This document shows, one piece after another, positions 1,026 through 28,391 of a DNA stretch of 64,000 nucleotides. The notes under the pieces are model-generated. The model was not told the DNA's origin. It saw only the letters and a list, made by a program, of their open reading frames with translations, and did no database searches. The number at the start of each line of letters is the position of its first letter. Position 1 is the first letter of the stretch. The translations under genes were made by a program, and so were the position numbers. The stretch covers positions 3,164,001 to 3,228,000 of the forward strand of contig NZ_CP038439.1 in the NCBI RefSeq assembly GCF_004683865.2, in the 5' to 3' direction. The stretch is from Paracoccus liaowanqingii. GTDB taxonomy: Bacteria > Pseudomonadota > Alphaproteobacteria > Rhodobacterales > Rhodobacteraceae.

Positions 1026-1326
1026 CTCTTCGCGTCGATGCGACCAGGTTGCCGAGAGGCTGCTTTTCAGAAATATGGTGATCGCGGGCACCGCGATCGC
1101 TGATCCAGCGGACAGCCGCGCCTCCGCTTCGCTCTGGCACCGCTGACAATCTTGCATTTCGTTTTTCCGCCTGCCATCCGGCCGGCGATCCGAACACGGG
1201 CTCTGGTGCCGCTGCGCGTCAGCCTCCACGGAGAAATCCTTTTCCTCCCACGCGCAAGCGCGCGGGCCCCTCCCAATTTCACCGCTCCGGCCCCGTGTGT
1301 CAGATCACCGTCCGGCCGCAGGTCGG
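1026..1326 (+). repeat. Dispersed ~330-bp repeat, copy A
   Basis: This copy shares long near-identical blocks with copies at about 17320-17640 and 27794-28140. Shared blocks include a gcgatcgc-rich core (gatcgcgggcaccgcgatcg), cagcctccacggagaaatcc and the tail ccccgtgtgtcagatcacc. It ends abruptly at about 1326, where an IS3-family transposase fragment begins, so its 3' end is missing. A frame reading LRVSLHGEI..FLP is kept in part between copies but has stops in copy C, so coding is doubtful. I do not recognise the element. Confidence 0.75.
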
Positions 1327-1460
1327 CACCCGGATCTCGATGGATGGCAAGGGCCGGTGCATCGACAACATCTTCATCGAACGCCTCTGGCGGTCCCTGA
1401 AGTATGAATGCGTCTACGGGGCGCATTCCGAGACCTGCAGGCATCGCTATATTCAACTAG
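1327..1460 (+). pseudogene. IS3-family transposase (orfB), internal fragment
   Basis: The translated stretch ISMDGKGRCIDNIFIERLWRSL, followed by KYECVY, is the conserved D-N-x-x-x-E region near the C-terminus of IS3/IS2-type transposases. The similarity stops after about 40 residues and the frame then runs into unrelated sequence. No start and no N-terminal catalytic core are present, so this is a dead fragment. It abuts repeat copy A directly, so one of the two truncated the other. Confidence 0.7.
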
Positions 1461-1589
1461 CCTTTTACACAGAGCGAGGTATTCCAGACCGAACGACCAC
1501 GGGCTGTTTCTCGCGTTACGAAATGATTTCGACTGTCTGCCCGATAGAGGAAGTTCGATCTTGGCACACGTCCTAGCTACTGTCTCTGC

Positions 1590-2627
1590 ATGAACATTCT
1601 CGGCATTGATTTCACAAGCAGCCCCTCTCGGCGCAAGCCTATCACTTGTCTTTGGTGCACACTGGAGGGAGATCATCTGCTCACGCGGTCCCTTGAGGAG
1701 TGGTCCGACTTTGGCGCGTTCGACGCAGCATTGGCGCAGCCCGGGCCGTGGATTGCGGGAATTGATTTTCCCTTCGGTCAGGCCCGCCGCTTTGTCGAGA
1801 CTGCTGGCTGGCCATCGACCTGGGAGGGATATGTTCGACACGCGGGACAGCTTGGTCGCGACGGCTTTCGCGAAGCCCTGGAAGTGTACAAGGAAACCCG
1901 GGCTGCGGGTGACAAAGAGCATCGTCGTGAAACCGACAAGCAGGCGAGCTCGATTAGTCCACAGAAGCTTTATGGGGTGCCTGTCGGTCTGATGTTCTTC
2001 GAGGGTGCTCCCCGTCTTCTTGCTTCAGGCGTGACCATCCCCCACCTCCATGCCGGTGATGCGCAGCGTATCGTGGTTGAGGCCTATCCTGGCGTTCTGG
2101 CCCGTCAATTCATCGGTCTCCGTAGCTACAAGAACGATACGCGCAGCAAGCAAACTGCCGATCAGCGGCAGGCTCGCCATAGCTTGCTTCATGCCCTTCG
2201 TAACGCGGCGCTAGCCCGATACGGCTTCGGCATCATCGCCCCCGATAACCTCTGCGACGATCCCGGCGCTGACCATCTCGACGCTCTCCTCTGCGCCGTT
2301 CAGGCTGCGTGGGCTTGGCGGCAGCGTGATGCGAGGTTTGGCGCGCCGGATGTCGTAGACCCATTGGAAGGATGGATCGCCGATCCGCACATTTCCGATT
2401 GTCCTCCTGCGCATCAGTACCCTCAGCCTGCTGTTGCGGTGGCTCATCATCCAGACAGTCACGAACTGAATGATTGGGCGACCTACGGCCCCAAGAACGC
2501 CGAGATCAACCAGCTCGTCAGTCGCCTCGCTCTGGAACATGGACTGCGGCTGCACGAAATAGAAAATCTGATCCTGCAGGCGCTGATGGACCGGCTTGCC
2601 TCGGAGGAGACGGGGTCAAAGCCGTAA
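1590..2627 (+). CDS. DUF429 domain protein (predicted RNase H-fold nuclease)
   Basis: A 345-residue protein opening with MNILGIDFTSSPSRRKPITC, the G-I-D beta strand typical of DUF429, a family predicted to have an RNase H-like nuclease fold. A second acidic motif is GIDFPFG at about residues 57-63. The late D-A-L-L-C-A-V-Q-A-A-W motif (about residues 230-241) is also characteristic. The C-terminal ~70 residues extend past the usual domain. It lies 77 bases upstream of a tyrosine recombinase on the same strand, in an IS-rich stretch, consistent with cargo of an integrative element. Substrate and role are unknown for the family; a nuclease is an inference from the fold. Confidence 0.75.
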   Translation: MNILGIDFTSSPSRRKPITCLWCTLEGDHLLTRSLEEWSDFGAFDAALAQPGPWIAGIDFPFGQARRFVETAGWPSTWEGYVRHAGQLGRDGFREALEVYKETRAAGDKEHRRETDKQASSISPQKLYGVPVGLMFFEGAPRLLASGVTIPHLHAGDAQRIVVEAYPGVLARQFIGLRSYKNDTRSKQTADQRQARHSLLHALRNAALARYGFGIIAPDNLCDDPGADHLDALLCAVQAAWAWRQRDARFGAPDVVDPLEGWIADPHISDCPPAHQYPQPAVAVAHHPDSHELNDWATYGPKNAEINQLVSRLALEHGLRLHEIENLILQALMDRLASEETGSKP

Positions 2628-2649: not shown

Positions 2650-2744
2650 GCGTTTCGTCAAGAGTGGGAAAACACGCAGACAGCATTTGTAGGGGGAGGA
2701 TTGCATGGCCGAGCCCCGCGCCAACCGGCGTTTCGTCAAGAGTG
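2650..2744 (+). repeat. 17-bp direct repeat around the recombinase start
   Basis: GCGTTTCGTCAAGAGTG occurs at 2650-2666 and again at 2728-2744, 78 bases apart in the same orientation. The first copy is in the spacer after the DUF429 gene; the second lies inside the first codons of the tyrosine recombinase. The duplication could be a trace of a past recombination event or a site used by the recombinase. The sequence alone does not decide. Confidence 0.6.
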
Positions 2745-3304
2745 ACGGGATCGCGCACGTCGATGCCCATCAGCGCCACCGTGATTATCTGACGCCGGAG
2801 GAGATGACGCGTCTGCTGGCCGCGTCCCGATCCGGGCGGCATGGCCCGCGCGATCATGCCATGCTGCTCCTCATGTATCGACATGGACTACGAGTCAGCG
2901 AGCTGATCGCCCTGCGCCGCACCGACCTTGATCTGCAATCCGGCCATCTCTGGGTCCATCGTCTGAAACGCGGTCTCTCCACCAATCACCCCCTCGCCGG
3001 CGATGAGTTGCGCGCGGTCCGGCGCCTCCTCACGAAGCGGCAGGACAGCCTGTCCTGGCTGTTCCTGTCCGAGCGCGGTCAGCCAATGACGCGGCAGGCC
3101 GTCAATTATCTCTTGACGGTCATCGCGACACGGGCCGGCGTCGACGCTGTCCATCCCCATATGCTGCGACATTCCTGCGGTCATGCTTTGGCCCATGCAG
3201 GACGAGACCTGCGTCTGATCCAGGATTATCTGGGTCATCGCGATCCCCGGCATACAGCGCGCTATACGAGAACGGCTGCGACGCGGTTCGAAGGGCTTTG
3301 GTAG
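2705..3304 (+). CDS. Short tyrosine recombinase (FimB/FimE-like size)
   Basis: A 199-residue tyrosine recombinase made almost entirely of the catalytic domain. All six expected residues are visible: R63 in YRHGLRVSE, K88 in HRLKRG, H152 and R155 in HPHMLRHSCGH, H178 in YLGHRD and the nucleophile Y187 in TARYTR. There is no separate SAM-like arm- or core-binding domain, as in FimB/FimE and several plasmid or transposon resolvases. ATG 2705 has a strong GGGGGAGGA site just upstream. It sits between the DUF429 gene and the SNIPE-like nuclease, and may mobilise or invert nearby DNA. Target sites are not proven. Confidence 0.9.
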   Translation: MAEPRANRRFVKSDGIAHVDAHQRHRDYLTPEEMTRLLAASRSGRHGPRDHAMLLLMYRHGLRVSELIALRRTDLDLQSGHLWVHRLKRGLSTNHPLAGDELRAVRRLLTKRQDSLSWLFLSERGQPMTRQAVNYLLTVIATRAGVDAVHPHMLRHSCGHALAHAGRDLRLIQDYLGHRDPRHTARYTRTAATRFEGLW

Positions 3305-3421: not shown

Positions 3422-4771
3422 ATGGACGCATTTGTTTGGATCCTGCTTGCCCTGATGCTGGCAAGCCCTTTTTTTCTCGTTCTCTGGCTCCGGACACGAA
3501 AGAAGCTTGGGAGAGCCCGGCACGAAAACGACGCTTTTCGGAGCCGGCTCAAGCCCATCCTCTCCATCGAAGCTCAGGCAGAAACCCTCCGTGGCGAGCG
3601 CTCGGCGCTTGAAGCGCAGATCGATGAAATACGTGCTGCATATAAGGAGAAGCGGGCCCTGCTGGACAGGCTCAGTGAGCAAGTCGCGGTTTACGATGAG
3701 CGCTTGGCCTTTGCCGAGCTTGGTGTCTATGAGCCCCATTTCGATTTCACGGATAGCGAAGCCTACAAGGACGCGATCAAGGACTGCCGCGAAAAGCAAA
3801 AGCGGATGGTCTCGGCGAAAACGGCAGTCTCTGCGAATAACAACTGGACGGTCGACGGAAGCAAGGCCAAGGGCCAGACCATGATCAACCGGCAGACCCG
3901 CCTGACAATGCGGGCGTTCAACAACGAGGCCGAAGCAGCGATTGCCAACGTCCGTTGGAACAATGTGAATGCGATGGAGAAGCGCGTCCATGCCGCGGTC
4001 AAATCTATCGACGACTCGAACGCATCCATGCAGATCGAGCTGTCCGAGGCGTATGTCGCCTTGAAGATCAAAGAAATCCGGCTGACGCACGAGTATCGGG
4101 AAAAGCTGAAGGCAGAGAAAGACGAACGGGCTGAGGCCGCCAGGCTTTCGCGTGAAGAGGCAAAGTTGCTTCGAGACGCTGAGGCTGCCGAGCGCGAGGA
4201 GGCCAAGTATGAGGCCCTGCTGGACAAGGCCAGGAAGGAAGCCGAGGCAGCGGTCGGAAACGAAGCACTTTCGGAGAAGGTGGCCCTGCTTGAGGCTGAG
4301 CTTGCCACGGCGCATGCCGCGACAGAGCGGGCGCGGGCAATGGCCGAAATGACCAGAACAGGCTATGTCTACATCATCTCCAACATCGGGTCGTTTGGCG
4401 AGGATGTCGTCAAGATCGGCCTCACGCGCCGCCTCGATCCTGATGACCGCGTGCGCGAGCTGGGCGATGCGAGTGTACCGTTTTTGTTTGACACGCACGC
4501 CATGATCTACTCCGAGAATGCACCCGCGCTCGAGGCCGCCCTGCACACTGAATTTGCGGCGCAGAGAATCAACCTGCAAAATATGCGGAAGGAGTTTTTC
4601 CGTGTCGGCATTGACGCCGTCGAGGAGGCGGTGACACGGCTTGCACCGGATGCCGCCTTCTTTAAGGACAGGGAGGCACAGGAATGGCATGAGACGATGG
4701 CGAGGCGGAATGCGAGCCTCGCCGCGCTACAGCCGCTGGCAGGGAATGAGGTGCTGCCGACAGAGATCTGA
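3422..4771 (+). CDS. Membrane-anchored DUF4041 + GIY-YIG nuclease (SNIPE-like anti-phage protein)
   Basis: I start at ATG 3422 (449 aa) because it opens with a clear membrane segment (about residues 2-22, FVWILLALMLASPFFLVLWL) followed by basic RTRKK. A coiled coil follows (about 30-95), then a DUF4041-type region (about 95-245, including YEPHFDF and MINRQTRLTMRAFNNEAEAA), a second charged coiled coil, and a C-terminal Mug113-type GIY-YIG domain (about 314-400). That last domain has GYVYIIS, VKIGLTRRLDPDDRV and a later HTEFAAQR. This order matches SNIPE, an E. coli membrane nuclease described as cutting phage DNA during entry. ATG 3353 would add 23 polar residues before the anchor and is less likely. 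The neighbouring recombinase supports a mobile defence island. Activity is inferred, not shown. Confidence 0.8.
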   Translation: MDAFVWILLALMLASPFFLVLWLRTRKKLGRARHENDAFRSRLKPILSIEAQAETLRGERSALEAQIDEIRAAYKEKRALLDRLSEQVAVYDERLAFAELGVYEPHFDFTDSEAYKDAIKDCREKQKRMVSAKTAVSANNNWTVDGSKAKGQTMINRQTRLTMRAFNNEAEAAIANVRWNNVNAMEKRVHAAVKSIDDSNASMQIELSEAYVALKIKEIRLTHEYREKLKAEKDERAEAARLSREEAKLLRDAEAAEREEAKYEALLDKARKEAEAAVGNEALSEKVALLEAELATAHAATERARAMAEMTRTGYVYIISNIGSFGEDVVKIGLTRRLDPDDRVRELGDASVPFLFDTHAMIYSENAPALEAALHTEFAAQRINLQNMRKEFFRVGIDAVEEAVTRLAPDAAFFKDREAQEWHETMARRNASLAALQPLAGNEVLPTEI

Positions 4772-4906
4772 TGACGAAATTACTTAATCCAGATGTGAGC
4801 GTCCTCAAACGGTGCAGCTACCTCGTGCGCATAGGAAGCGGACGTTCAGCGGTCGGAAAAGCATCGTCGCGAAGAGCCCAAAGCTGCCTTTCGTGAGGAT
4901 GGAGTC

Positions 4907-5860
4907 CTATAGGGCTTTGGGCCAGATCAGGTCTTCAAGATCCTCTAGCTTTCTGACGGAAGCCTGCCAGTCGCAGATGGCGATGCCGCGCATGTCACTC
5001 GCCCCGTGGAGCATCATCAGCGTCGTCAAGCGTCGGCGCATTGCATTGTTATAGTCCTCTGCGGGCACACCATAGCCTTCAAGGAATGCCCGGAGGCGGT
5101 CGGGGACGCCTGCGCACATGAAGGTACTTGGGCCCAAGAGATCGTATTCGCGCCAGCCCGTCATCACGTCACCGAAGTCGATGACCGCCGCCAACTGCCA
5201 GCCATCGGACGTTTCTGTCAGTAGCAAATTTTCTGGAATCCATTCCCCGGTCAGGATAACAGGCTGCACTTCCGCGGGCAGCACTGAGGGCGCCGCGTGT
5301 AGAAGGGCTGGCAGATCGGCTAACAGGGACTCCTCTAAGCCCTGACGTCTATGCCGCTCGATGCAGCCTTCGGTCTGACGCTTGATGAAGTCTGGCCAGG
5401 CCGGCTGCATCTCAAGCAACTCTCCGGGATCGACGGCCTGGACCTCTGCAATCGTGCGCCCAATTTCGCCTAGAATGGCGAGGCGTTCTTGCTCAGATAA
5501 TACCGGCCAGACCTCGGACCCTACTGTCCCGGGCAGCTTGGTGATGATCAGCCATGACCATCCGCTGTCCTCCCCTTCTGCCAGTATCCGAGGGATTGGG
5601 ACGGACAAACGGCCATCGAGTTGGCGCAGGGCAAGTCGTTCGACTGCGAACTGTGCAGCGTAGATCGGCGGGAAAATCTTTAAGATGGCGCTGCCATTCA
5701 AATCGACGACGAGGTTGGTTCCGGTTTTAAACGAGGTAGGCGAGATGGCATCCATATTTGCCCTTCGCGCAATCTCGATGACGAGGGGCAACCAGCGGTG
5801 GGAGCCGGACCGCCATCGCTCGAAGTCTTCTTCATCCGAGATGTCCGGCCAAAGTTTCAC
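4907..5860 (-). CDS. Aminoglycoside phosphotransferase-family kinase
   Basis: A 317-residue protein with the APH/choline-kinase fold. It has a nucleotide-lobe lysine in NGSAILKIFPP (K61), a hinge-like WSWLIITKLPG, and the metal-binding AVIDFGD (D228). The catalytic-loop motif usually reads H-x-D-x-x-x-x-N but here is TGEWIPEN: T204 replaces His and E206 replaces Asp, while N211 is kept. Such LTGE variants occur in an uncharacterised branch of the family, so aminoglycoside resistance cannot be assumed. The start is GTG at 5860 with GGTAGGA upstream. It stands alone, convergent with the SNIPE-like gene. Confidence 0.8.
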   Translation of the reverse strand: MKLWPDISDEEDFERWRSGSHRWLPLVIEIARRANMDAISPTSFKTGTNLVVDLNGSAILKIFPPIYAAQFAVERLALRQLDGRLSVPIPRILAEGEDSGWSWLIITKLPGTVGSEVWPVLSEQERLAILGEIGRTIAEVQAVDPGELLEMQPAWPDFIKRQTEGCIERHRRQGLEESLLADLPALLHAAPSVLPAEVQPVILTGEWIPENLLLTETSDGWQLAAVIDFGDVMTGWREYDLLGPSTFMCAGVPDRLRAFLEGYGVPAEDYNNAMRRRLTTLMMLHGASDMRGIAICDWQASVRKLEDLEDLIWPKAL

Positions 5861-6124: not shown

Positions 6125-6541
6125 ATGATCAGCTATATCACCGTTGGTGCCGATGACATCCCGCGCGCGAAGCGATTTTACTCTGCATTCCTGCCTGCCC
6201 TCGGCTACGAACTGGTAGAAGGCCAGGAAGGTCTGAGCTACGAGCTCCCCGAGCTTCATGATGAGCCTGCCGTCTTGCCCGCATTTTACGTCAAACCCCC
6301 ATTTGACGGACGTCCGGCATCGGTCGGCAATGGCGCGATGGTCGCGTTCCATGCACGGAGCCAACAAGAAGTCCGTGAACTTCATTCGGCAGCGCTCGCT
6401 GCTAACGGCCGGGACGAAGGGCAACCCGGCTTCCGCGATGCGTATGGCCCTCATTTCTACGTTGGCTATCTCCGGGACCCTCAGGGAAACAAGATCGCGC
6501 TTTATTCCAACAATCCAGACGAGCCCGGACGAGACGGTTAG
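6125..6541 (+). CDS. VOC-family (glyoxalase/bleomycin-resistance fold) protein
   Basis: A 138-residue single-domain VOC protein. It begins MISYITVGADDIPRAKRFYSAF, the beta-alpha opening of the fold, and ends with HFYVGYLRDPQGNKIALYS, the canonical last strand pair with D-P-x-G-N-K. Such proteins bind a metal or small molecule, and the family includes isomerases, dioxygenases and drug-sequestering proteins. The substrate cannot be read here. The region from 6542 to the IS21 left end at 6693 holds no gene I recognise. Confidence 0.8.
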   Translation: MISYITVGADDIPRAKRFYSAFLPALGYELVEGQEGLSYELPELHDEPAVLPAFYVKPPFDGRPASVGNGAMVAFHARSQQEVRELHSAALAANGRDEGQPGFRDAYGPHFYVGYLRDPQGNKIALYSNNPDEPGRDG

Positions 6542-6692: not shown

Positions 6693-6744
6693 TGTCAATC
6701 GGCGCCCAATATTGACCCCCTTTCGGCGTGCAATTTTGACCCCT
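6693..6744 (+). repeat. IS21 left-end terminal repeats
   Basis: Two related repeats lie in tandem: one with CGGCGCCCAATATTGACCCC (within 6693-6720) and one with CGGCGTGCAATTTTGACCCC (within 6723-6743). They are inverted relative to the right-end repeats and are the likely transposase-binding sites. Confidence 0.75.
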
Positions 6745-6812
6745 TAGCTGTGTGGTGATCAGGGTCTGTCCCGACGCAGCTGATCATGTTGCGGAGGCGG
6801 GACAGACCCTGA

Positions 6813-7541
6813 TCAGGCGCGGTTCTTGAAGCGCCAGGACTCGTTGCCGGTTTCGAGGATCTCGCAGTGATGCGTGAGGCGGTCGAGCAGGGCCGTTGTC
6901 ATCTTGGCATCGCCGAAGACGGCCGGCCATTCGCCGAAGGCAAGGTTCGTCGTGACGATGATGGACGTGCGCTCGTAGAGCTTGCTGATCAGGTGGAACA
7001 GCAACTGGCCGCCTGCCTGAGCGAATGGAAGATATCCCAGTTCGTCGAGTACGATGAAGTCGAGACGGGTCAGGTATTCGGCCGTGCGCCCCTGTTTACC
7101 GCTGCGGCTCTCGGTATCGAGCCTGTTCACCAGATCGACCACGTTGAAGAAGCGGCCTCGGGTGCCGTTCCGTATCAAGGCGCGAGCGATCGCGATGGCG
7201 AGATGTGACTTTCCCGTGCCAGTGCCACCGATCAGCACGACATTGCGCTGGTCGGCCACGAATGTGCCAGTCGCAAGATCGCGCACCAGGCCCTCGTTGA
7301 CCGGTGTGTCGGCAAAGTCGAAGTCTTCGATATCCTTCGCGAGCGGCAGCTTTGCCACGGTGAGCTGATACTTGATCGATCGGGCCTGCTTCTCGGCGAT
7401 CTCTGACTGCAACAGATCACCGACAATACGGGGCGGTTCGAACTGGCGCTTGATACTGGTGGCCATGATCTCGTCATAGGCGCTGCGCATCCCGTAGAGC
7501 TTGAGAGTGGCCATCAATTCCAGAACCTGGGTGCGTTCCAT
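6813..7541 (-). CDS. istB: IS21 transposition helper ATPase IstB
   Basis: A 242-residue AAA+ ATPase with Walker [16 protein letters not shown] (about residues 104-118) and Walker [14 protein letters not shown]. It starts [18 protein letters not shown], the typical IstB N-terminal helix pair. IstB assembles on target DNA and recruits the IstA transposase. Full length with no interruption. Its start overlaps the istA 3' end by 68 bases, the usual IS21 coupling. Confidence 0.93.
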
Positions 7542-9094
7542 CGTAGTTTGTCCTCCTGAGGCTGTCGTAGCGTGCGCAATCAGCCACGGGCTCGTGGGTC
7601 AGCCGCAACGCGGTGGGGGTGAGAAGCAATGGAGGTGGTGCCGGGTCCCGGCTGCGCGCGAGGATGTTGATGATGACCGGCGCCGAAAAGACGCCCTGTG
7701 CGAGGGCCTCCTGGCACGCGGCTTCCACAGCAAGGAGGCCATCGGTCGCGACGCAGCCGAGGATTGCCACCATCTGTCGGTCGCCGTCATTCATGCTCTT
7801 GAGCTTGCGGCGCACCGTCGCTATCGCGGTCGGCAGCACCCAGTTCTGGAACGGGGCACCATTCCGTAAGGCGCCGGGTTTGCGTGCCAGAACAGGCACA
7901 TAGTGCCAGGGATCGTAGACCGTCTCGTTCCTGCCAAAGCAGCGGGAATGTTCTGCCACGATGACCCCGTCCTGCCGGATGACGATCTTCTCGGCATAAG
8001 CGTGGACTTCGACGGGCCGTCCGACAGCCGTCGAGATCACGGAATACCTGTTGTTGTCGAACCGGACGAGGCAGGTCTTGGAGACGGAGGCCGGAACGGA
8101 ATGGAAGCCGTCAAACGAGCCGACATAGGGGACGAGGGTCGCGCGCTCTGTCTCGAACATCTGCCAGATCATCTGATCGCTGCGCTCAGGGTGCTTGTGC
8201 GCCTTCGCATAGGCGATGCATTTGTCGAGCAGCCAGACGTTCAGCTCGTCCAGGCTCCTGACCCGAAGCCTTGGGGTGAAGAACCGTTCGCGCACAAGGC
8301 CAACCTGGTTCTCGACCTGGCCTTTCTCCCAGCCCGACGCAGGCGTGCAGGCAACCGGCTGAACCAGATAGTGGCTGCACATCTGCAAAAAGCGCCGATT
8401 GTAGAGCCGCTCCTTGCCGATAAAGACCGCCTCGACCGCCGTCTTCATGTTGTCGTAGATCCCGCGCGTGCAAGTGCCCTTGAAGAAGGCGAAGGCCCGG
8501 TCATGCGCGTCGAACATCGAAGCCACCGCGGCGCCATCGGTTTGAGCCCGATGGCTGAGGCTCCTGGCTCTCGCGCATATACGCCCGGGCGAACATCATG
8601 CGGCTGTGGCAGAGCCTGACATGCGCGACCTTGACCGTCGTCGTCACGCCGTTGATCAGCACGACCTCATGGCTCCAGTCGAATTGGTAGGCCTCGCCGG
8701 GCGCATAGTAGAGCGGCACGTAGGCTTCGGCAGCCGCTGATCCGCGCGCCTTCGACCAAGTCTTGGCGTAACGCCGGATTGCATCGTAACTGCCCTCGTA
8801 GCCGAGTGACCGGACCTCCTCGTAGATCCGGATCAGGGTCAGCCGTTCTCGCGACGCCTTGCCTTCATTGGCAACTAGGAACCGATCCACCTCCGACTGC
8901 CAGGGCCCAACCCGCGGCATCGGCTGATGGTCACGCTCGTAGGTGAAGTCCGTCTCGTCTGACCGCAGGATCTTGCGCACCGTGTTGCGCGACACATGCA
9001 GGTCCCGGACGATGCGCTTCATCGACCAGCCCTGCACATGAAACGCCCGACGCACCCGCGCTATCGTATCCACTCGCTTCAACTCCCCCTCCAT
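7474..9094 (-). pseudogene. istA: IS21 transposase IstA, frameshifted
   Basis: The N-terminal part (9094 to about 8540) has the helix-turn-helix HVQGWSMKRIVRDLHVSRNTVRKIL and the start of the integrase core, ending FARAYMRESQE. The C-terminal part begins MFDAHDRAFAFFKGTCTRG in another frame and continues to the normal end. Between QE and FDAHD lie about 43 bases that do not fit the family alignment I remember and shift the frame by one. The gene would therefore be inactive unless the ribosome shifts frame. A sequencing error is the main alternative. Confidence 0.8.
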
Positions 9095-9130
9095 CCGCTG
9101 CCTCGCAACGGATGGTCAGATGAAACCCGA

Positions 9131-9193
9131 GGGGGGTCAAAATTGGACGCCGATTACCCCGCCAAGGGGGTCAGTTTTGCACGCCGAAACACA
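9131..9193 (-). repeat. IS21 right-end terminal repeats
   Basis: GGGGTCAAAATTGGACGCCG (within 9131-9152) and GGGGTCAGTTTTGCACGCCG (within 9166-9186) are tandem and inverted relative to the left-end pair. The outer one defines the element boundary at about 9193. Confidence 0.75.
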
Positions 9194-9277
9194 ACCAGGG
9201 GCGAAGTCGCCAAGAGGGTCAATAGACCAGCCAATCAAGCCAACGCCGCGTGTGCGTCACAATCGGTGGAAATTTGA
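9194..9277 (+). pseudogene. tniA: tniA 3' remnant (last ~27 codons)
   Basis: The plus-strand frame directly after the IS21 right end reads TTRGEVAKRVNRPANQANA and stops at TGA 9275-9277. The TGA overlaps the ATG of tniB as TGATG, the coupling expected in a tniA-tniB-tniQ operon. The sequence is basic and low in complexity, like the disordered C-terminal tail of Tn5053-type transposases that contacts TniB. Identity is inferred from position and character; 27 residues are too few for a firm family match. Confidence 0.55.
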
Positions 9278-10230
9278 TGATGACAAATGATCGAATTGTC
9301 GAAACGGCTCGGAAGATTTCCGCGCTAAAGAATCATTTCATCATGCATGAGAGGTTTGGGCCGCTGGAGGCCCGCTTCACTATGCTCACCGAAAAGCGCC
9401 TGGCCGACATTGCCATGAAGCGAGGGACTGAGGCCCACGGACTAGCCTTGTCCGGGGCATCCGGAACCGGGAAAAGCGCGGCGATGTCCCATCTTCTTAG
9501 TCGGGCTCGAGAGCGCCTCGATCAGGCCAATCACGCTGATCTGACCATTGTCAGCCTCCGAGTCCCATCGCCTGCCACGTTAAAGCTGGTGGGGCTGTCT
9601 TTGCTCCGCGCCCTCGGTTTTCAGATCAGCTCTGAGCGACAAGCTTGGTACATCTGGGACTTGGTGCGACATCATCTCAGAGAACGAAAGGTCATCTTTG
9701 TTCACCTGGACGAAGCACAGGACCTGGCATCACGCGGCACCAAGCACGAGCTGAACGCCGTCTCCGCGATGCTCAAGACCCTCATGACCGATGCTGACTG
9801 GCCAGTTAGCATCATTCTCTCTGGCACCATAGAATTGGAAGATATCCTAAACCACGACCCGCAGCTCGCCAGAAGGATGAAGACCGTCTATTTTGGGCCC
9901 CTGTCTGGCATCGGTCATGCCGATGACGTTCTCGACCTGTTGGAGCACTACTGCGAGCGGGGATGCCTGACGATCGACGACGATACCGCCACGGCAGAGC
10001 TGGCAGAACGTCTCATACATGGCGCCGCAAATCAGTTTGGACTCGTTATCGAGCTCACCCTTGCTGCGATCGAGCAAGCCTATCTCAAAAACGAGTCCAC
10101 CCTATTCTTGAGGCATTTCGCGGAGGCCTACGCTCAGCGATCCGGGTCCGATGATGCATTCAACCCCTTTATTATTCCAGACTATCATCGGGTCGATGCG
10201 CGCCAGGTGTACGCCAGGGAGCATCGCTGA
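9277..10230 (+). CDS. tniB: TniB-family AAA+ transposition ATPase
   Basis: A 317-residue P-loop ATPase with Walker A GASGTGKSAAM and Walker B KVIFVHLDEAQDL, followed by the sensor-like SIILSGTIELEDIL. This is the TniB/TnsC branch of AAA+ target-selection ATPases of Tn5053/Tn7-like transposons. The N-terminal IVETARKISALKNHFIMHERF is typical of TniB. The start ATG at 9277 overlaps the tniA stop (TGATG), and its stop overlaps the tniQ start in the same way. With no transposase left beside it, the gene is orphaned but intact. Confidence 0.88.
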   Translation: MMTNDRIVETARKISALKNHFIMHERFGPLEARFTMLTEKRLADIAMKRGTEAHGLALSGASGTGKSAAMSHLLSRARERLDQANHADLTIVSLRVPSPATLKLVGLSLLRALGFQISSERQAWYIWDLVRHHLRERKVIFVHLDEAQDLASRGTKHELNAVSAMLKTLMTDADWPVSIILSGTIELEDILNHDPQLARRMKTVYFGPLSGIGHADDVLDLLEHYCERGCLTIDDDTATAELAERLIHGAANQFGLVIELTLAAIEQAYLKNESTLFLRHFAEAYAQRSGSDDAFNPFIIPDYHRVDARQVYAREHR

Positions 10231-12023
10231 TGTTTACCGCAACAAAGCCACTACCGCTGACGGTACCCTCACGGGAAGGAGAGACAGCCACTTCGTTTGC
10301 ATCACGCTTGGCACGCCGCAACGGCGTGCCACGGCTAATTACCTTCTGCTCAGACTTGGGCATCGACTACTTTGCCCTTGTGAACGGCGCGTCACTCGAG
10401 ATCCAGAGACTCGCAGCCCTAGGCGGTTGTGATCCGGTCACGCTGCAGGCAGCGACTCCATCTCTTATCGAGCCAGGATGGTTTCAGCTTGGAAAAGAAA
10501 GGATCAAATTCACCGCCTTCATTCGTACAACGCTCCGGATCTGCCCAGTGTGCCTCAAAGAGGCACCGGATCGGACTGGGCTTATTCATCAGGGCATCTG
10601 GCAGCTGGCATCAATTCGCACATGTGAGCAGCATGGATGTTATCTTGTCGCTGTTCCGAAGCCTCGGAACGCAAATGATTGCTTTGATCACATCCCAATG
10701 GTTGACCACCACCTGCCTGAAGGCATCAAGGCGGTCAGACCCGAGGATCTGGAACTAGAGCAGTATTTGCTTAATCGGATCCGAAACGGGCCGACAAAGC
10801 TCTGGCTAGACCGATCGTCATTTCATGTTGCAGCACAGGCCTGCGAAATGCTTGGGGCATTGTTAACGCTCGGCCCCGACGCCAGACGATCGCAACTGAC
10901 AGTCGATCAGTGGACCGTCGCAGGAACGGCAGGCCTGCGAACTCTTCGGAAGGGATCGAAAGGGCTGCGGGGGAAGCTCAAAGAGATCCGAGATTCACAC
11001 CCAGTAGAAGAAAAGCTCCATCGGGCTCACTATCGAGTGTTCTTCGAATGGTTGCGTTATCGTGATGACGACACCGACTTTGACATCTTTCGCAATATCG
11101 TCCGCGATTTTATTTTCAAGAACTTTCCAATTCAGAAAGGATCTATCGTGTTTGGAAAGCCCTGTCCGGAGCAGCGGCTTCATACATTGACAACCGCTCA
11201 TAAGATGTTTCGAATTCCACATATTAGACTTGGCCGAAAGTTAGCCACTATGGGGATTGCAAAACTCGAGGCTGGAGGTAGGTTCTACACCCTACAAAGG
11301 TACATACCTACAGAAGTTCTCAATGATATACGTTCCGAGGTTGTTTCCTTGGTTGGCGCCAAGGAAGCCGCAAAAAGCATTGGAATAAGATATGTTTTGT
11401 TTGAGCGCTTGGCGGAACAAGGCCTCGTTAAGCGGTATTACGAAGACGGCCAGGTGACTTCCTACTATCATAGGAGGGACGTTGAAGATTTCATGGAAAA
11501 TTTGACGAGGTTGGCGCACCGTCCTACGGTGGGCTTAAAGTGCGTGGACATTGGCGCTGCTGCTCGCCTCCGGGGCGTTATGATAGCGCCCCTAACAGAG
11601 ATCATCCTGAAACGAAAAATTAATCTTTATACTGATGAAGTTCGTCCCAAAAGCTTTCGTGAATTTCGGGTATGCCTCAAAGATCTAACGCACCTTAGCG
11701 GCCGGCAGAGGGAGAAAATCGTTTCCTCTTTAGAAGTAGCGAATATCCTGAAAGTTAGCCGTCAAACCGTATACTGGCTCCGCCAAGAGGGCTACTTGAA
11801 GTTAGCTACAGAGCGAAAAGGCAAATGGGTCAGTCGCGGACATTACTCCACCAGATCGTCTGTAAATGGGTTTAAAGCACAAAATATATCATTAGATGAG
11901 CTGGCAGATATATCAGGAAGGACAACTGGCGCAGAGCTTGAGTATCAAATGGGTCTTGGAGCAATTCCGCTTTTGATGGGGGAACGTTGCAGTACGATTT
12001 TTCGTCGATGTGATATAGCCTAG
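10230..12023 (+). CDS. tniQ: TniQ-family target-selection protein, long form
   Basis: A 597-residue TniQ. The N-terminal domain begins PLPLTVPSREGETATSFASRLARRNG. It is followed by a zinc-finger pattern with C105 and C108 (ICPVCLK) and C132, H135 and C137 (TCEQHGC). The rest is longer than the ~400 residues common in Tn5053 TniQ. It contains at least two helix-turn-helix-like segments, VGAKEAAKSIGIRYVLFERLAEQG and SSLEVANILKVSRQTVYWLRQEG, suggesting site-specific DNA recognition. Base composition is clearly more AT-rich than the flanking operons, consistent with transfer. TniQ in known systems links TniB/TnsC to a target site. Confidence 0.85.
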   Translation: MFTATKPLPLTVPSREGETATSFASRLARRNGVPRLITFCSDLGIDYFALVNGASLEIQRLAALGGCDPVTLQAATPSLIEPGWFQLGKERIKFTAFIRTTLRICPVCLKEAPDRTGLIHQGIWQLASIRTCEQHGCYLVAVPKPRNANDCFDHIPMVDHHLPEGIKAVRPEDLELEQYLLNRIRNGPTKLWLDRSSFHVAAQACEMLGALLTLGPDARRSQLTVDQWTVAGTAGLRTLRKGSKGLRGKLKEIRDSHPVEEKLHRAHYRVFFEWLRYRDDDTDFDIFRNIVRDFIFKNFPIQKGSIVFGKPCPEQRLHTLTTAHKMFRIPHIRLGRKLATMGIAKLEAGGRFYTLQRYIPTEVLNDIRSEVVSLVGAKEAAKSIGIRYVLFERLAEQGLVKRYYEDGQVTSYYHRRDVEDFMENLTRLAHRPTVGLKCVDIGAAARLRGVMIAPLTEIILKRKINLYTDEVRPKSFREFRVCLKDLTHLSGRQREKIVSSLEVANILKVSRQTVYWLRQEGYLKLATERKGKWVSRGHYSTRSSVNGFKAQNISLDELADISGRTTGAELEYQMGLGAIPLLMGERCSTIFRRCDIA

Positions 12024-12445: not shown

Positions 12446-13360
12446 TTAGCCGGCAATATAGGCTTGGTAGATATCGTTGATGCGGCTCGTCCTTGCGCCA
12501 GGCTTGCCGCCTCCAATCGCGCGCCCGTCAATTGAAGCCACCGGTGTTACGCCCCCAAGGGTTCCGGTCACGAACGCTTCATCAGCATTGTATACCTCGG
12601 AAAGAGTAAAAGGCTTTTCATGAACAATCATTCCGGCATCATGCCACAATTTGATCACCTTCTTGCGCGTAATGCCGTTGAAGCAGGTTAGGCCGTCGGA
12701 CGTCCATAGCTCGTCACCTCTGAAGATAAAGAAGTTCGTAGAATTGCATGACGCGACGAAGCCGCGACTGTCCAGCATAAGGGCTTCGTCAGCGCCCATG
12801 TTGATCGCCTGAAGCAATGCTTGGATGAAATTAAGACGCGAATGAGAGTTCAAACGAAGATCGAAAACGTCTGGTGTCGAGCACCGTATGGTGGATGTCA
12901 TCAGCTTCATGCCCGTTTCCTTCAGGGCCGGGTTCGGCTGCTTCCATTCCGACACGACGACAAGGGTCGCGCCACCGACAATGAAGCGTGGATCTTGATT
13001 TGGTGTCGATTTGCGACCACGCGAGATCATCATCCGGATATGGACACCGTCGTGCATGTCGTTGTGGCGAAGGCACTTCCAGATTTCCTCGACCAGCTCT
13101 GACTTGCTGTAACCGATATCGAGCTGGATGGAGTTTGCACCTTCATAAAGACGGTCGATATGTTCATCGATCGCAAGGAGCTTTCCCTTGATCAGGCGGA
13201 TGCCTTCCCAAACGCCGTCCCCAAGAACAAAACCAGCATCAAAAATGGAGACTTTTGCCTCGTCACGTTTAAAGAATTCACCGTTGACGTAGACGTCCAC
13301 GTCGTCGTTCCTGGGGTCTTTCACATAGCTTTGCGATGAAGAACTGCTGAGGGGGGTCAT
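12446..13360 (-). CDS. Class IV aminotransferase-like protein lacking the expected lysine
   Basis: A 304-residue fold-type IV protein (branched-chain/D-amino-acid aminotransferase superfamily). It has VYVNGEFFKRDEAKVSIFDAGF near the N-terminus, EALMLDSRGFVASCNSTNFFIF, and a late EAFVTGTLGGVTPV. In relatives the PLP-binding lysine falls in the segment that here reads DLRLNSHSRLN. Residues 169 and 175 are Arg, codons CGT and CGC, where I would expect Lys. Activity as a transaminase is therefore doubtful or uses another residue. It ends a GntR-ABC operon, suggesting a role with the imported amino acid. Confidence 0.75.
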   Translation of the reverse strand: MTPLSSSSSQSYVKDPRNDDVDVYVNGEFFKRDEAKVSIFDAGFVLGDGVWEGIRLIKGKLLAIDEHIDRLYEGANSIQLDIGYSKSELVEEIWKCLRHNDMHDGVHIRMMISRGRKSTPNQDPRFIVGGATLVVVSEWKQPNPALKETGMKLMTSTIRCSTPDVFDLRLNSHSRLNFIQALLQAINMGADEALMLDSRGFVASCNSTNFFIFRGDELWTSDGLTCFNGITRKKVIKLWHDAGMIVHEKPFTLSEVYNADEAFVTGTLGGVTPVASIDGRAIGGGKPGARTSRINDIYQAYIAG

Positions 13361-13386
13361 GATATTACCTTATTCTACTAGCTTGG

Positions 13387-14160
13387 TCAGAAGGCGAATT
13401 CGCCGAAGCGCCGCAGGAACTTCTGTGTCCGCGCCTTCTGAGGGTTTTTGAGAACCTGATCGGGCGTGCCGACCTCATGGAAAACGCCCTCAGCAAGGAA
13501 GATCACCTTCGTCGCAAAGTGGTAGGCAAAGCCCAACTCGTGCGTGACCAGAATCATGGTTCGACCTTCGCTTGCCAGCTTGTTGATGACCCGCAGGACT
13601 TCCCCGACAAGCTCTGGATCCAGCGAGGACGTTGGCTCGTCAAAGAGCAGGATCTCCGGTTCCATGGAGAGCGCCCGCGCAATGGCCACACGCTGCTGCT
13701 GTCCACCAGACAGGCGCCCCGGCCACGCGTCATGCTTTTCCGCAAGACCAACCTTGGACAGTTCCCGGACCGCAATTTCCCGGGCCTGATGCTTGGAGAG
13801 GCGCTTCACCGTTAGGAGCCCCTCCATAACATTCTGAAGAACCGTCATGTGAGGAAACAGGTTGAACTGCTGAAACACCATGCCGAGCCGCTCACGGACC
13901 ATGCAGAGCTGTTTCTCCGGATAGGTGACGCGGCCTTTGCTCTCGGTCCCAATGCGCTTACCGTCGAGCCAGATCTGCCCTTCACTGGGCATCTCCATGA
14001 AGTTCATGCAACGCAGAAATGTTGACTTTCCTGAGCCGGAACCGCCGATGATGGCCACACGCTCGCCCGGCTCAACCTGGAAGTTGATTCCCCTAAGAAC
14101 GTGATGATCACCAAACCGCTTGTGGAGCCCTTTGACTTCCAGAATGGACTTGCTTGTCAT
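13387..14160 (-). CDS. Polar amino-acid ABC transporter, ATP-binding protein
   Basis: A 257-residue ATPase of the GlnQ/HisP type: Walker A GGSGSGKST (about residues 38-46), Q-loop VFQQFNLFPHMTVLQNV, signature LSGGQQQR, Walker B ILLFDEPTS, and H-loop VTHELGFA. It powers the inner-membrane importer formed by the two permeases just upstream in the operon. It is separated by 18 bases from the second permease and 26 from the aminotransferase. The length is standard for the family. Confidence 0.95.
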   Translation of the reverse strand: MTSKSILEVKGLHKRFGDHHVLRGINFQVEPGERVAIIGGSGSGKSTFLRCMNFMEMPSEGQIWLDGKRIGTESKGRVTYPEKQLCMVRERLGMVFQQFNLFPHMTVLQNVMEGLLTVKRLSKHQAREIAVRELSKVGLAEKHDAWPGRLSGGQQQRVAIARALSMEPEILLFDEPTSSLDPELVGEVLRVINKLASEGRTMILVTHELGFAYHFATKVIFLAEGVFHEVGTPDQVLKNPQKARTQKFLRRFGEFAF

Positions 14161-14178
14161 AGTGAATCCTTTCGGGCG

Positions 14179-14844
14179 TCAGTTCGACCGCGCTAGACGT
14201 TTTTCAAGGCGGCCTGCAAGGAAGGTGCCGGGGTAAATCAGGACGAAGTAGATGAAGGCCACTGCGGTCAGGATCTCGAACGGGCGGTAATAGGTCGAGG
14301 ACAGTAACCTGCCCTGATACATCAGTTCATGAACCGAGATCACCGACGCGAGCGAAGACATCTTCGCGACCTCGATCACGCGATTGGTGAAGGCGGGCAG
14401 CATTCGCTTGATTACCTGAGGCAGGATGACCCGCCGCATTGCCTGCCCTTCTGTCATGCCGATTGCTTTGGCTCCTTCCATCTGGCCCCGATGGATGGAC
14501 CTGATGCCGCCGCGAAAGATCTCTGACGCATAGGCGGTGGTGTTAAGCGTCAGCCCCAGAAGAGCAGCGGAAAAGGGGCTGAGCTGAACACCTATCAAGA
14601 TCGGAAAGGCATAGAAGAACCAGATCAGTTGGATCAGGACTGGGGTGTCGCGAAACAACTCGACATACACAAGGCTTAGTCCGGAGAGCCACTTGCGCCT
14701 CGAAAGCCGCGCTTGTGCTATGATAAATCCACCAATCAATCCGAGAACGATCGATGGGATCCAGATCTGTATCGTCACCAAAAGGCCGCGCATCAAGACA
14801 ATCCAGTTGTCCGTCACGATACTGAAGTCGGGGATGTAGTTCAT
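14179..14844 (-). CDS. Polar amino-acid ABC transporter permease (HisM-like)
   Basis: A 221-residue permease with about five membrane segments. The coupling motif is EIFRGGIRSIHRGQMEGAKAIG (EAA loop with G-x-x-x-E-A-x-x-x-x-x-G). I choose ATG 14844 (MNYIPDFSIVTDNW) rather than a start at 14895, which would overlap the preceding permease by 41 bases. It pairs with the next gene as the membrane channel. Confidence 0.92.
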   Translation of the reverse strand: MNYIPDFSIVTDNWIVLMRGLLVTIQIWIPSIVLGLIGGFIIAQARLSRRKWLSGLSLVYVELFRDTPVLIQLIWFFYAFPILIGVQLSPFSAALLGLTLNTTAYASEIFRGGIRSIHRGQMEGAKAIGMTEGQAMRRVILPQVIKRMLPAFTNRVIEVAKMSSLASVISVHELMYQGRLLSSTYYRPFEILTAVAFIYFVLIYPGTFLAGRLEKRLARSN

Positions 14845-14854
14845 TATCCGGACC

Positions 14855-15520
14855 TCATTGATAGGCTGTAAGCCGGTTTTCAGCGAGACGAGCAAGCTGA
14901 CTGGCTGTAATGAGAAGCACGAGATACATGGCAGCGATCGTCGTGTAGACCTCGAGCGGTCGAAACGTTTCCGAGTTCACCATCATCGCCTGGTAGAGCA
15001 GATCAGCGTAGGCCAGCGTGGATGCGAGGGCCGTTGTCTTCAAAAGCTCAAAACTGCGTTCAATGAACGGCGGCACCATGCGCGATACTGCCTGGGGAAC
15101 GATGATGCGACGCATTTGGGCCTGATGGCTCATGCCAAGAGCTTTGGCTCCCTCCCACTGACCGCGTTCAATGGAGACAATGCCACCGCGGAATACTTCC
15201 GCGTAGAATGCGCCCGATTGCGTAGAGAGAGCGAGGACAGCTGCGACGTAAGGGCTCAGGCTTACGGAAAGCATGACTGGCAAGGCATAGAAGAACCAGA
15301 AGAAGTGGACGATCGGAGGCGTGTTGCGGTAAAATTCAATGAAGATTGCAGCAGGCCATCTCAGCGCTTTCTTGGATGACAAGCGCATCACTGCGAGGAT
15401 CATCCCCACCAGAACGCCTAGAACGATGGACACGGCTGCAATCTTCACGGTGTTGAGGAGGCCCAGTGCGAGCATGTCAAAACGCTCGAATACCGGGCCA
15501 AAGTCCCAGGAGTATTCCAT
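14855..15520 (-). CDS. Polar amino-acid ABC transporter permease (HisQ-like)
   Basis: A 221-residue membrane protein starting MEYSWDFGPVFERFDMLALGLL. The EAA loop is EVFRGGIVSIERGQWEGAKALG and the gating-helix segment FYRNTPPIVHFFWFFYALP is typical of the His/Glu/Gln permease group. It is the first permease after the binding-protein gene, with a 78-base gap that holds no clear hairpin. Confidence 0.92.
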   Translation of the reverse strand: MEYSWDFGPVFERFDMLALGLLNTVKIAAVSIVLGVLVGMILAVMRLSSKKALRWPAAIFIEFYRNTPPIVHFFWFFYALPVMLSVSLSPYVAAVLALSTQSGAFYAEVFRGGIVSIERGQWEGAKALGMSHQAQMRRIIVPQAVSRMVPPFIERSFELLKTTALASTLAYADLLYQAMMVNSETFRPLEVYTTIAAMYLVLLITASQLARLAENRLTAYQ

Positions 15521-15598
15521 TCGGCGACTTTCGCTTCAGTCATCAGAAAGAGTAGAGACCCGAGGCTTGAGGCAAGCCAACAGGTCTCAAGCCAGTGC

Positions 15599-16423
15599 TT
15601 ACCAAGACTCTTTCACAAGCCCCGGAACACCTTCAGAACTGATGTTCTTGCTGGACAGATAGGCCTCGAACAACTCGTTAGGAACGCCGCTCTCGTAAAG
15701 GGTCCCAAGGGTCGTGTTCACCCAATCCCTGAAATCGCTGCTTTCTTCCTTGCGCAGACCAACAGAGGTTTCCACGGGTTCAACAGGCGTTGGGAGCAAC
15801 ACCTTGCCCATCTTCAGCCGCGAATACTGAACGATGAGAGCAGGGTGAAACTGCACAACGGTGTCGACCCGGCCTGCCGCAAAGGCAGCAACGGCCTCAT
15901 CATTGGAGGAGAAGCGATTGATCTGGGCCTCTGTCATCATCTCGGTGATATTCTGGTCAAGCGAGGTTCCCATCGTCACCCCGATGCGCATCTCCGGGTT
16001 ATCAAGCTCCTCCCATGTGGTGACCGCGCTATCTTCCGCGACCAGTGCCCCCATTGCGTAGTAGAAAAGCGGGTTTTCAGGGAAGTCGATGGCCTGCTTG
16101 CGCTCTTCTGTCGGGTCAAGGACGAACATTAGGTCAAACTGGTTGGCTTGAAGACCCGCAACAGCGTTGGCCCAGGAAGTCTCGACCGGCTCCATTTCGA
16201 CACCGAGGTCCTCGGCCATACGCTCACCCATGGAGACGCCAACGCCGGTCCACTCTTCAGACATTGGGTCTTTATAGAACCAAGGTTCGGCTGACGTGAC
16301 GCCGATGCGCAGCTTGCCGGTTTCTTGGACCTGAGCAAGTGTGCCTGTTTCCGCAGACAATGCAGGCATGGCCGCACCGAAGCTGACTGCCGCGGCGGCG
16401 ATGAGAAGGGTCCGTCTTTTCAT
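15599..16423 (-). CDS. Periplasmic amino-acid-binding protein of the ABC importer
   Basis: A 274-residue family 3 solute-binding protein. A signal peptide MKRRTLLIAAAAVSFGAAMP ending ALSA precedes ETGTLAQVQETGKLRIGVTSAEPWFYKD, the classic opening of this family. Later motifs DLMFVLDPTEERKQAIDFP and RIGVTMGTSLDQN match the lobe-hinge regions. Its ATG overlaps the GntR stop as ATGA, so regulator and transporter are cotranscribed. The ligand is probably a polar or branched amino acid, but binding residues cannot be assigned. Confidence 0.93.
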   Translation of the reverse strand: MKRRTLLIAAAAVSFGAAMPALSAETGTLAQVQETGKLRIGVTSAEPWFYKDPMSEEWTGVGVSMGERMAEDLGVEMEPVETSWANAVAGLQANQFDLMFVLDPTEERKQAIDFPENPLFYYAMGALVAEDSAVTTWEELDNPEMRIGVTMGTSLDQNITEMMTEAQINRFSSNDEAVAAFAAGRVDTVVQFHPALIVQYSRLKMGKVLLPTPVEPVETSVGLRKEESSDFRDWVNTTLGTLYESGVPNELFEAYLSSKNISSEGVPGLVKESW

Positions 16424-17085
16424 TTTTTGCTCCTGCTGGGATTTGCCCTTGTCGTTTCCAAGGTGTCCACAAAGGCTTTTGTTGTTTCGAGGCCGCGCCG
16501 CATATGCGTTTGGATCTCGGCTTTCATAGTCTCAAGATCATCGGAAAGCGCGAGGCGGATATATTCATCGTGGCTGTCGCGTTTGGGACCAGAAATTCCG
16601 TGGGCGCGGTGATGAGCAGCCCAATAGACTTGGAGGCGACCGCGAACACTCGACCAACTTGAGGCCAAGATACTGTTGCCGCTCCATTCATAAGAAAGGC
16701 CATGCAGATCCAGTTCGGCATCGATAGCCCGAACGTCGTCTTGAGCGTCGATGGCGTTCAAAAGCCTCTCGTGTCTGGCCCGCAGCTCCTTTTCAAAGCG
16801 TAAAGTCCGTCGATCCCAAATTTGCTCAAAAGCAAAAACTTCCAAGCATATGCGCATTGAGTAGATATCGTTGATGTCCTTTACAGAAAGATCAACGATG
16901 CGGGTGCCGGTATAGGGTACCGATACGACTAGGCCTTGATCGATTAGTTGACGCAAGGCTTCCCGCATGGGGGCGCGGCTAGCCCCAAATCTGACGGCAA
17001 GTGCAGTTTCAGTAACCGTTTCACCTGGCGCGAATTCACCTGCCAGAATAGCCGCACGCATCATCTCACAGATCTGCGCCGCCAT
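16420..17085 (-). CDS. GntR-family (FCD) transcriptional regulator
   Basis: A 221-residue FadR/FCD-type regulator. Its winged helix reads MRAAILAGEFAPGETVTETA followed by VRFGASRAPMREALRQLIDQGL. The C-terminal FCD helices include RMCILEVFAFEQIW-like sequence with acidic/His ligands (DLHGLSYE). I take ATG 17085 because a longer frame to 17226 would run through a TTGTATACGA-type operator at 17146. It heads the ABC/aminotransferase operon and probably responds to an imported amino acid or its keto acid. Confidence 0.88.
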   Translation of the reverse strand: MAAQICEMMRAAILAGEFAPGETVTETALAVRFGASRAPMREALRQLIDQGLVVSVPYTGTRIVDLSVKDINDIYSMRICLEVFAFEQIWDRRTLRFEKELRARHERLLNAIDAQDDVRAIDAELDLHGLSYEWSGNSILASSWSSVRGRLQVYWAAHHRAHGISGPKRDSHDEYIRLALSDDLETMKAEIQTHMRRGLETTKAFVDTLETTRANPSRSKK

Positions 17086-17145
17086 TGTCTCACGCTTCAC
17101 CACTGTCACAATCGTCAACCTGTGCACCCTTTCTCTAATTGTAGA

Positions 17146-17155
17146 TTGTATACGA
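17146..17155. promoter_or_regulatory. Candidate GntR operator
   Basis: TTGTATACGA, a near-palindrome centred on GTATAC, lies about 60 bases upstream of the GntR start. FCD-group GntR proteins commonly bind TTGTATACAA-like sites, so this is a candidate autoregulatory operator for the operon. Confidence 0.5.
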
Positions 17156-17319
17156 CATGAGTTGTGGGACCAATGTCTTTGTAGGTTGACAATGAGCTTA
17201 GCTAGATCTGCCTTAAAGTTTGGCATTTTCCGGTCTCGGCCAACGTTTGTTGAAGGCGGTCACGGTGCCAACTGATACGCGCTATCCGATGTGAACCCCT
17301 CTCACTTGATGCCGCCCGG

Positions 17320-17640
17320 CGGACGAGGGGCCGGTTTTTCGAGAAGCACGTGATCGAGGGCACCGCGATCGCTGATTCGGAGAACAGCCGCGCCTCCGCT
17401 TCGCTTTGGCTGACGATTTTTTATTTCGTTTGTCCGTTTGCCATCAGACTTGCGATCTGAACACGGCTTTGGTGTCGCTGCGCATCAGCCTCCACGGAGA
17501 AATCCGGTTCCTTCCACGCAAAGGCGGGCGGGTAACGTGTAATTTTACCGCTCCGGCCCCGTGTGTCAGATCACCGCCCGGCCGCAAGTCGGGCTACGCC
17601 CGCCCTGCTTTGCCCTTCGGATGACATGGGGTCATCCAAA
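17320..17640 (+). repeat. Dispersed ~330-bp repeat, copy B
   Basis: Second copy of the repeat described at 1026-1326, same orientation. It keeps the accgcgatcgctga core, cagcctccacggagaaatcc and the ccccgtgtgtcagatcacc tail, and extends further than copy A through tgctttgcccttcggatgac. The first ~80 bases are more diverged than in A and C. It marks the left edge of the TRAP block. Bases 17641-17841 hold no gene I can support. Confidence 0.75.
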
Positions 17641-18354: not shown

Positions 18355-18358
18355 CCCC

Positions 18359-22964: not shown

Positions 22965-22979
22965 TGAGGAAGAGTACTG

Positions 22980-28334: not shown

Positions 28335-28391
28335 AAGGCAGAACTATCTGACGCCTGCCACCCGGTGTTTAGCAACAGATAGTTCTGCCTT
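28335..28391. repeat. 16-bp inverted repeat with 25-base loop
   Basis: AAGGCAGAACTATCTG at 28335-28350 and its exact reverse complement at 28376-28391, followed by TTT. It could be a terminator for a transcript running right, or the terminal inverted repeats of a lost small element. Its closeness to the IS5 remnant favours mobile origin. Confidence 0.6.

Follow-up and report, generated by a model that had tools for sequence, protein, structure and literature searches.

A SNIPE relative associated with a Tn7-like remnant or fusion at tRNA-Pro in Paracoccus liaowanqingii

The stretch of DNA analysed here (the window: 64,000 nucleotides, positions 3,164,001 to 3,228,000 of contig NZ_CP038439.1 of Paracoccus liaowanqingii) begins 395 bp past the end of a tRNA-Pro(CGG) gene and carries near its left edge a gene for a close relative of SNIPE (PD-Lambda-1), an E. 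coli membrane nuclease that cuts the DNA of a phage on its entry into the cell, together with the features collected in Table 1. The gene is read from an ATG, and a GTG at 3353 opens the same frame as well. Upstream of it, across a gap of 117 bp, lies a gene for a tyrosine recombinase, itself preceded by a gene for a DUF429 protein; the original prediction had named both neighbours, and Pfam shows both to be real. NCBIfam invertase models match the recombinase below their cut-off. Further upstream there is a transposase-like remnant, presumably of IS3 type by its motif, and the stretch 1321-1417 recurs across many genomes of the genus. Downstream of the SNIPE gene follow an APH-family phosphotransferase gene, whose product is matched by four NCBIfam APH models that all stay below cut-off, a gene for a glyoxalase-superfamily protein, and an IS21-type insertion in which istA may be broken, since it is read in two overlapping frames. 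A tniB/tnsC-like and a tniQ/tnsD-like gene come next, and the remaining 15-16 kb or so to the right end of the element described below (12446-27502) hold putative transport and metabolic ORFs, judged by reading (aminotransferase, amino-acid ABC transporter, TRAP-type transporter and CoA-transferase-like).

Table 1. Features of the locus and of compared loci. Positions are those of the window (first base 1, the base before it 0) unless another locus or contig is named.
Feature	Position	Strand	Basis or remark
Left end of element, start	G000:C1:3163615 = window -385		outside the window, upstream
Transposase-like remnant	1295..1576	+	ORF
DUF429 protein	1590..2627	+	PF04250 38.7 bits
Tyrosine recombinase, 199 aa, Fim-type invertase-like	2705..3304	+	PF00589 153 bits
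SNIPE (PD-Lambda-1) relative, 449 aa	3422..4771	+	ORF, Pfam, PADLOC, alignment to E. coli SNIPE
Predicted membrane anchor, residues 3-21	3428..3484	+	Kyte-Doolittle mean 2.53
DUF4041 core, residues 161-215	3902..4066	+	PF13250 60.3 bits, cut-off 27
GIY-YIG (T5orf172/MUG113) domain, residues 314-407	4361..4642	+	T5orf172 (PF10544) 65.7 bits at 314-407; MUG113 (PF13455) 57.9 bits at 330-406; Foldseek
Codon of E371 (= SNIPE E414)	4532..4534	+	alignment, position mapping
APH-family phosphotransferase	4907..5860	-	PF01636 108 bits
Glyoxalase-superfamily protein	6125..6541	+	PF00903 22.9 bits, cut-off 20.6
IS21-type insertion	6697..9189	-	PF01695, PF22483; inverted repeats I4, I7-I9
istB	6813-7541	-	within IS21-type insertion
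istA	7474-8526 and 8501-9094	-	two overlapping frames, within IS21-type insertion
tniB/tnsC-like ATPase	9250..10230	+	PF05621 66.7 bits; homology starts at 9202
tniQ/tnsD-like target selector	10230..12023	+	PF06527 68.7 bits
Right end of element	28337..28360	-	inverted partner; 18 of first 24 bases as in left end
5-bp target duplication CCCGG	28361..28365	.	other copy precedes left end
Second, tandem left end	28366..28389	+	directly after CCCGG
Neighbour of related recombinase, OLD + UvrD (Gabija-like)	L066 6466-10307
Neighbour of related recombinase, SIR2-STAND	L069 3130-5589
Neighbour of related recombinase, McrB-like AAA	L060 3614-5497
Convergent gene, about 300 aa, facing recombinase 3' end	L043 8947-9846 (G453); L059 5608-6519 (G504)

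The DUF4041, T5orf172 and MUG113 matches of the SNIPE relative each exceed the Pfam curated cut-off, and the PADLOC PD-Lambda-1 model PDLC03976 covers residues 42-433 of the protein with its profile positions 80-477 of 491 (524 bits, E 9.7e-158), the second of the two PADLOC PD-Lambda-1 models giving 522 bits. These Pfam and PADLOC scores exceed chance by far; among the NCBIfam models none scored above its cut-off. The DUF4041-like region had been predicted and was looked for within residues 95-245, where the PF13250 match indeed falls, and the predicted C-terminal GIY-YIG domain is borne out by the other two matches. The catalytic Tyr/Arg/Glu set of that fold, looked for as a possible weakness of the assignment, is present as Y317, R336 and E371. 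At the other end of the protein the hydrophobic residues 3-21 agree with the N-terminal anchor that had been proposed, so that hydropathy and helix prediction together give the protein a predicted membrane segment. Since an Arg and a Lys come after it, an N-outside, C-inside orientation is suggested. A terminator-like hairpin with a T run is found at 3445-3466, within the start of the gene; such sites number 3 against 1.6 in shuffled sequences, which is near the shuffled expectation.

Structure models are in keeping with this arrangement. The second of two AlphaFold2 models, which the first resembles, has a single helix over residues 3-100 and a long helix over 209-276; the DUF4041 core is modelled confidently (block pLDDT 89-95 over residues 111-230) and the C-terminal GIY-YIG part with low confidence (block pLDDT 50-64, residues 311-360). 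Foldseek found six predicted viral proteins at E <= 0.001, two of them named T5 Orf172, the best match (1.4e-18) being a 372-residue siphovirus protein labelled 'Helicase'. Against the PDB no chain reached E <= 0.001, and a sequence search for solved relatives gave none at E 0.1.

The protein is 44% identical in alignment to the PD-lambda-1 protein of Escherichia phage PhiR26_1. The latter has the wild-type residues named by Saxton et al. (2026, PMC13190303) at all nine positions checked (223, 250, 253, 257, 264, 305, 308, 319 and 414), and its numbering can therefore be taken as that of SNIPE. E371 thus corresponds to E414, the change of which to Ala abolished SNIPE defence according to the available text of that paper. 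All 40 aligned rows have Glu at the equivalent position; they comprise the window protein, 36 of the 120 homologues among the matches listed, and three proteins taken from records of phages or plasmids. Y317, K331, G333, R336, N384 and N387 are likewise invariant in these rows, the window protein included. Position 257, Trp in SNIPE, is Arg220 in the Paracoccus protein, and the column holds Arg in 21 and His in 11 of the 40 rows. In the same available text, every change in DUF4041 that was found, W257R included, increased Bas14 defence; W257R is described there as common among homologues. A hydrophobic N-terminal segment starting within the first 60 residues is seen in 39 of the 40 rows (the exception is P0069), and Saxton et al. 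give a predicted membrane segment for 66% of SNIPE homologues (one in 59%, two in 7%), so that the segment is usual for SNIPE and not strictly defining. The Paracoccus protein shares with E. coli SNIPE the order of membrane segment, DUF4041 and C-terminal GIY-YIG, the catalytic Glu, and a match to the PADLOC profile along most of the sequence, but differs in being 44% identical in alignment, in an unlike N-terminal region, in the Arg at position 257 and in belonging to a genus without a detected ManZ-type protein. The curated profiles, the alignment and the matching catalytic Glu uphold the original identification, and on these sequence comparisons the protein is a well-supported, ordinary member of the SNIPE family.

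Relatives are numerous. A protein search gave 7519 proteins at E <= 0.001 among 7999 candidates scored, all three Pfam domains were present in 120 of 120 homologues among the matches listed, and proteins with the same domains at 83-91% identity exist elsewhere. Within the family, 15 of 394 genomes, this one included, contain a protein matching SNIPE at E <= 1e-20; in the same-genus genome G486 the relative lies at a contig end. The DUF4041 proteins of Paracoccus rhizosphaerae and P. gahaiensis are 66-67% identical and have the same three Pfam domains, but in the flanking DNA examined their loci (L114, L118) have no recombinase, DUF429 or Tns homologue. Homology to SNIPE does not assure activity, since of two PD-Lambda-1 homologues of S. 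thermophilus with 98.5% identity one is protective and the other inactive, as stated in the accessible part of PMC12322248.

The gene lies between two ends of the kind found in Tn7-like elements. The left end starts at the tenth base past the CCA of the tRNA-Pro(CGG), with the sequence TGTTTAGGGGCAGATAGTTCTGCC, and the element runs over 28,746 bp to its inverted right end, with CCCGG on both sides; a 5-bp duplication is typical of Tn7. With up to 3 mismatches allowed, a 20-nt core of the end motif is present twice in the window, against 0.00 expected from shuffled sequences. Directly after the CCCGG repeat comes a second, tandem left end, and a search of the next 75 kb for its partner gave no close right end, only two weak minus-strand matches at 54852 and 91691, in which at most 5 of 19 bases differ. 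The tniB/tnsC-like ATPase is 66-67% identical to homologues in three genomes of the genus (G504, G453 and G490). A tblastn search of the window, 20 kb before it and 40 kb after it, made with two queries each for TnsA and TnsB, found neither protein, nor was TnsB matched genome-wide by one query in a search run without a control. For this reason the element is a Tn7-like remnant or a fusion, and its present mobility is doubtful.

Seven of 125 genomes of the genus have the pattern of tRNA plus end, the reversed control pattern having 0 matches; a looser comparison by eye after the tRNA saw the end in 7 of 11 genomes, with G438 in place of the G399 given by the pattern search. The G504 element of the same kind has its own repeat pair, CCCGA, on both sides and contains genes for an HsdR-like protein, DUF429, the recombinase, a protein with an HNH-like motif, a TnsA-like protein, TnsB, TniB and TniQ. 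It is the more complete version, its TnsA and TnsB being Pfam matches below the curated cut-offs and its TnsB reaching 47 bits with PADLOC TnsB. These features support the view that the SNIPE gene is carried at tRNA-Pro by one Tn7-like element, or by two that fused, which has ends of its own and is flanked by 5-bp duplications. Of the mobile unit in the original prediction, then, the carriage itself has held (ends, CCCGG repeats, tniB and tniQ), and its equation with the recombinase-DUF429 pair has not. In the available text of Benler et al. (2021, PMC8649781), the cargo of Tn7-like transposons includes defence genes, tyrosine recombinases are found inside, and insertion occurs downstream of tRNA genes. 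The present element is similar in having tniB and tniQ, paired ends, a 5-bp duplication, an insertion site immediately after a tRNA gene in the downstream direction, and a tyrosine recombinase with a defence gene inside, but differs in that neither TnsA nor TnsB was found. Tn7-like target selectors, with tRNA sites among them, are covered by Faure et al. (2023, PMC10293859), as far as the accessible text goes. DUF4041 is absent from the main text of Benler et al. as available, and among the matches listed by a literature search, outside which most subscription papers fall, no paper joins DUF4041 or PD-lambda-1 with Tn7-like elements.

Two other sets of boundaries were considered and rejected. 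The first took a 34-nt inverted repeat (1008-1041 and 4861-4894, 82% complementary) for the termini of a 3.9-kb unit, but this repeat proved to be part of dispersed repeats of the genus: the region of the left arm has several copies in the genome, and that of the right arm is matched at 73% in another part of the genome and also occurs after tRNA-Pro in G493 and G465. A copy of the tRNA 3' end as an integrase att site fails likewise, the 35-nt end having no match and the 17-nt end a single match with 3 mismatches, which is at chance level (28 of 100 shuffles reach as many).

Recombinases of the same type (E <= 1e-60) are found at 15 places in 12 of the 125 genus genomes, this genome included, and by hand comparison of positions lie less than 20 kb from tRNA-Pro in ten of the twelve; the exceptions are G461, at 56 kb, and G490, on another contig. 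Around 10 of the 14 other places there is at least one Tns-type match (TnsA only at L066, TniB and TniQ only at L062), and around four (L043, L065, L067 and L070) there is none in the flanking DNA examined. Homology breaks off at the recombinase stop codon in 13 ends listed, G453 and G504 excepted, which have a downstream gene in common; by this comparison of flanks the SNIPE gene occupies a slot that holds other genes in relatives. A survey by Pfam of 19 chosen neighbouring proteins, 10 of them also by PADLOC, found type I restriction R-like, McrB-like, OLD with UvrD (Gabija-like) and SIR2-STAND proteins, the others being transposases or unmatched. The gene shared by G453 and G504, which is convergent with the recombinase gene and has what we take to be an HNH-like motif, matched nothing in Pfam or PADLOC; it may encode a defence nuclease not yet described that fills this slot.

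The pair of recombinase and full DUF429 gene recurs in these same two genomes without SNIPE beside it. Conversely, neither gene is near any of the 14 other SNIPE loci of the family (some partial, with flanks of up to 1.5 kb), and in the set of 80 named SNIPE loci a recombinase match, weak at 30-33% identity, occurs at just two (L129 and L130) and Tns matches at just one (L166). The recombinase thus belongs to the tRNA-Pro hotspot and not to SNIPE, and a single mobile cassette of recombinase, DUF429 and SNIPE is rejected, as the pair recurs without SNIPE and the examined SNIPE loci lack the pair. The idea that the invertase-like recombinase phase-switches SNIPE was also rejected, because none of the 25 inverted repeats listed (of 49) brackets the promoter region alone; a promoter scan gave no site on the plus strand.

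With regard to the host partner, a profile search for ManZ-type proteins (PF03613) gave no match in any of the 125 genus genomes, while in a control set of 14 genomes it matched E. coli, B. subtilis and L. lactis. This makes ManYZ an unlikely partner, and the ManYZ route of SNIPE to lambda is probably unavailable in the Paracoccus host. According to Saxton et al. (2026, PMC13190303), SNIPE leans on ManYZ for defence against lambda and not against other siphoviruses. A ManYZ partner thus matters for robust lambda defence and is no defining trait of SNIPE. Taken with the missing ManZ-type protein, the lesser role of ManYZ outside lambda makes the tape-measure route the likelier one for the relative described here.

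Our preferred reading, to which we assign a probability of roughly three in four, is that the SNIPE relative is an inner-membrane nuclease that cuts phage DNA at injection and sits inside a Tn7-like remnant beside tRNA-Pro. The N-terminal helix would anchor the protein and leave the remainder in the cytoplasm; DUF4041 would bind DNA as well as the tape-measure protein of an infecting siphovirus, and the GIY-YIG domain would then cut the phage DNA on entry, the anchor keeping the nuclease away from the chromosome. The gene most likely arrived as cargo of an element homing to tRNA-Pro, the transposase genes of which would have been lost later.

What the carrier was can also be seen differently, in a way compatible with the preferred reading as it concerns the carrier only: the 28.7-kb stretch may be two or more tandem Tn7-like elements at tRNA-Pro, fused by deletion and the IS21 insertion, with SNIPE coming from the tRNA-proximal one. 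The second left end at 28366, tniB directly after the IS21 copy and not preceded by any match to tnsA or tnsB, and the 16 kb of putative transport and metabolic ORFs between tniQ and the right end would all fit such a history, and a fusion of two tandem elements would likewise give identical CCCGG repeats. The simplest reading is nevertheless a single pair of ends flanked by identical 5-bp repeats, and we put the fusion a little short of an even chance.

The function of the protein allows other views as well. It may no longer defend, the frame being intact from a recent transfer into a host without an active partner or a suitable phage; the inactive S. thermophilus homologue (PMC12322248, in the part available), the lack of a ManZ-type partner in the genus and the element's lack of a detectable transposase are in line with this. 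However, the frame is intact, the catalytic and DUF4041 positions are conserved, and same-domain proteins at the high identities given above exist elsewhere, so that we consider the loss of defence improbable. Still more remote, and very improbable in our view, is a service to the mobile element, in which the GIY-YIG protein would exclude other elements or act in recombination with the neighbouring tyrosine recombinase. The short distance from the recombinase gene and the occurrence of T5orf172 proteins in many viruses speak for such a role, but it is at odds with the 14 family loci where recombinase and DUF429 are missing from the flanks and with the low identity of the two recombinase matches among the 80 named loci, and the combination of DUF4041 with a membrane segment fits SNIPE.

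On the preferred reading, and judging from sequence likeness, the Paracoccus copy probably protects its host as SNIPE does, and it is for this reason a further example of a known defence and not a new kind. The modest news lies in the transposon setting at tRNA-Pro; that setting and the missing ManZ partner are worth specialist attention. It is a tentative idea, possible more than probable, that a tRNA-Pro-homing Tn7-like family shuttles swappable anti-phage genes in Paracoccus, and that the SNIPE beside the resident recombinase needs no ManYZ for protection, capturing nothing but phage tape-measure proteins at the membrane. Since the work that explained SNIPE was done in E. coli, where ManYZ is one partner, a closely related protein from a genus in which no ManZ-type protein was found would allow a natural test of whether binding to the tape-measure protein is enough by itself. 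The ends of the transposon beside tRNA-Pro show one route by which genes of the SNIPE type can spread between chromosomes, and the tRNA-Pro site in Paracoccus is a place to look for other defence genes.
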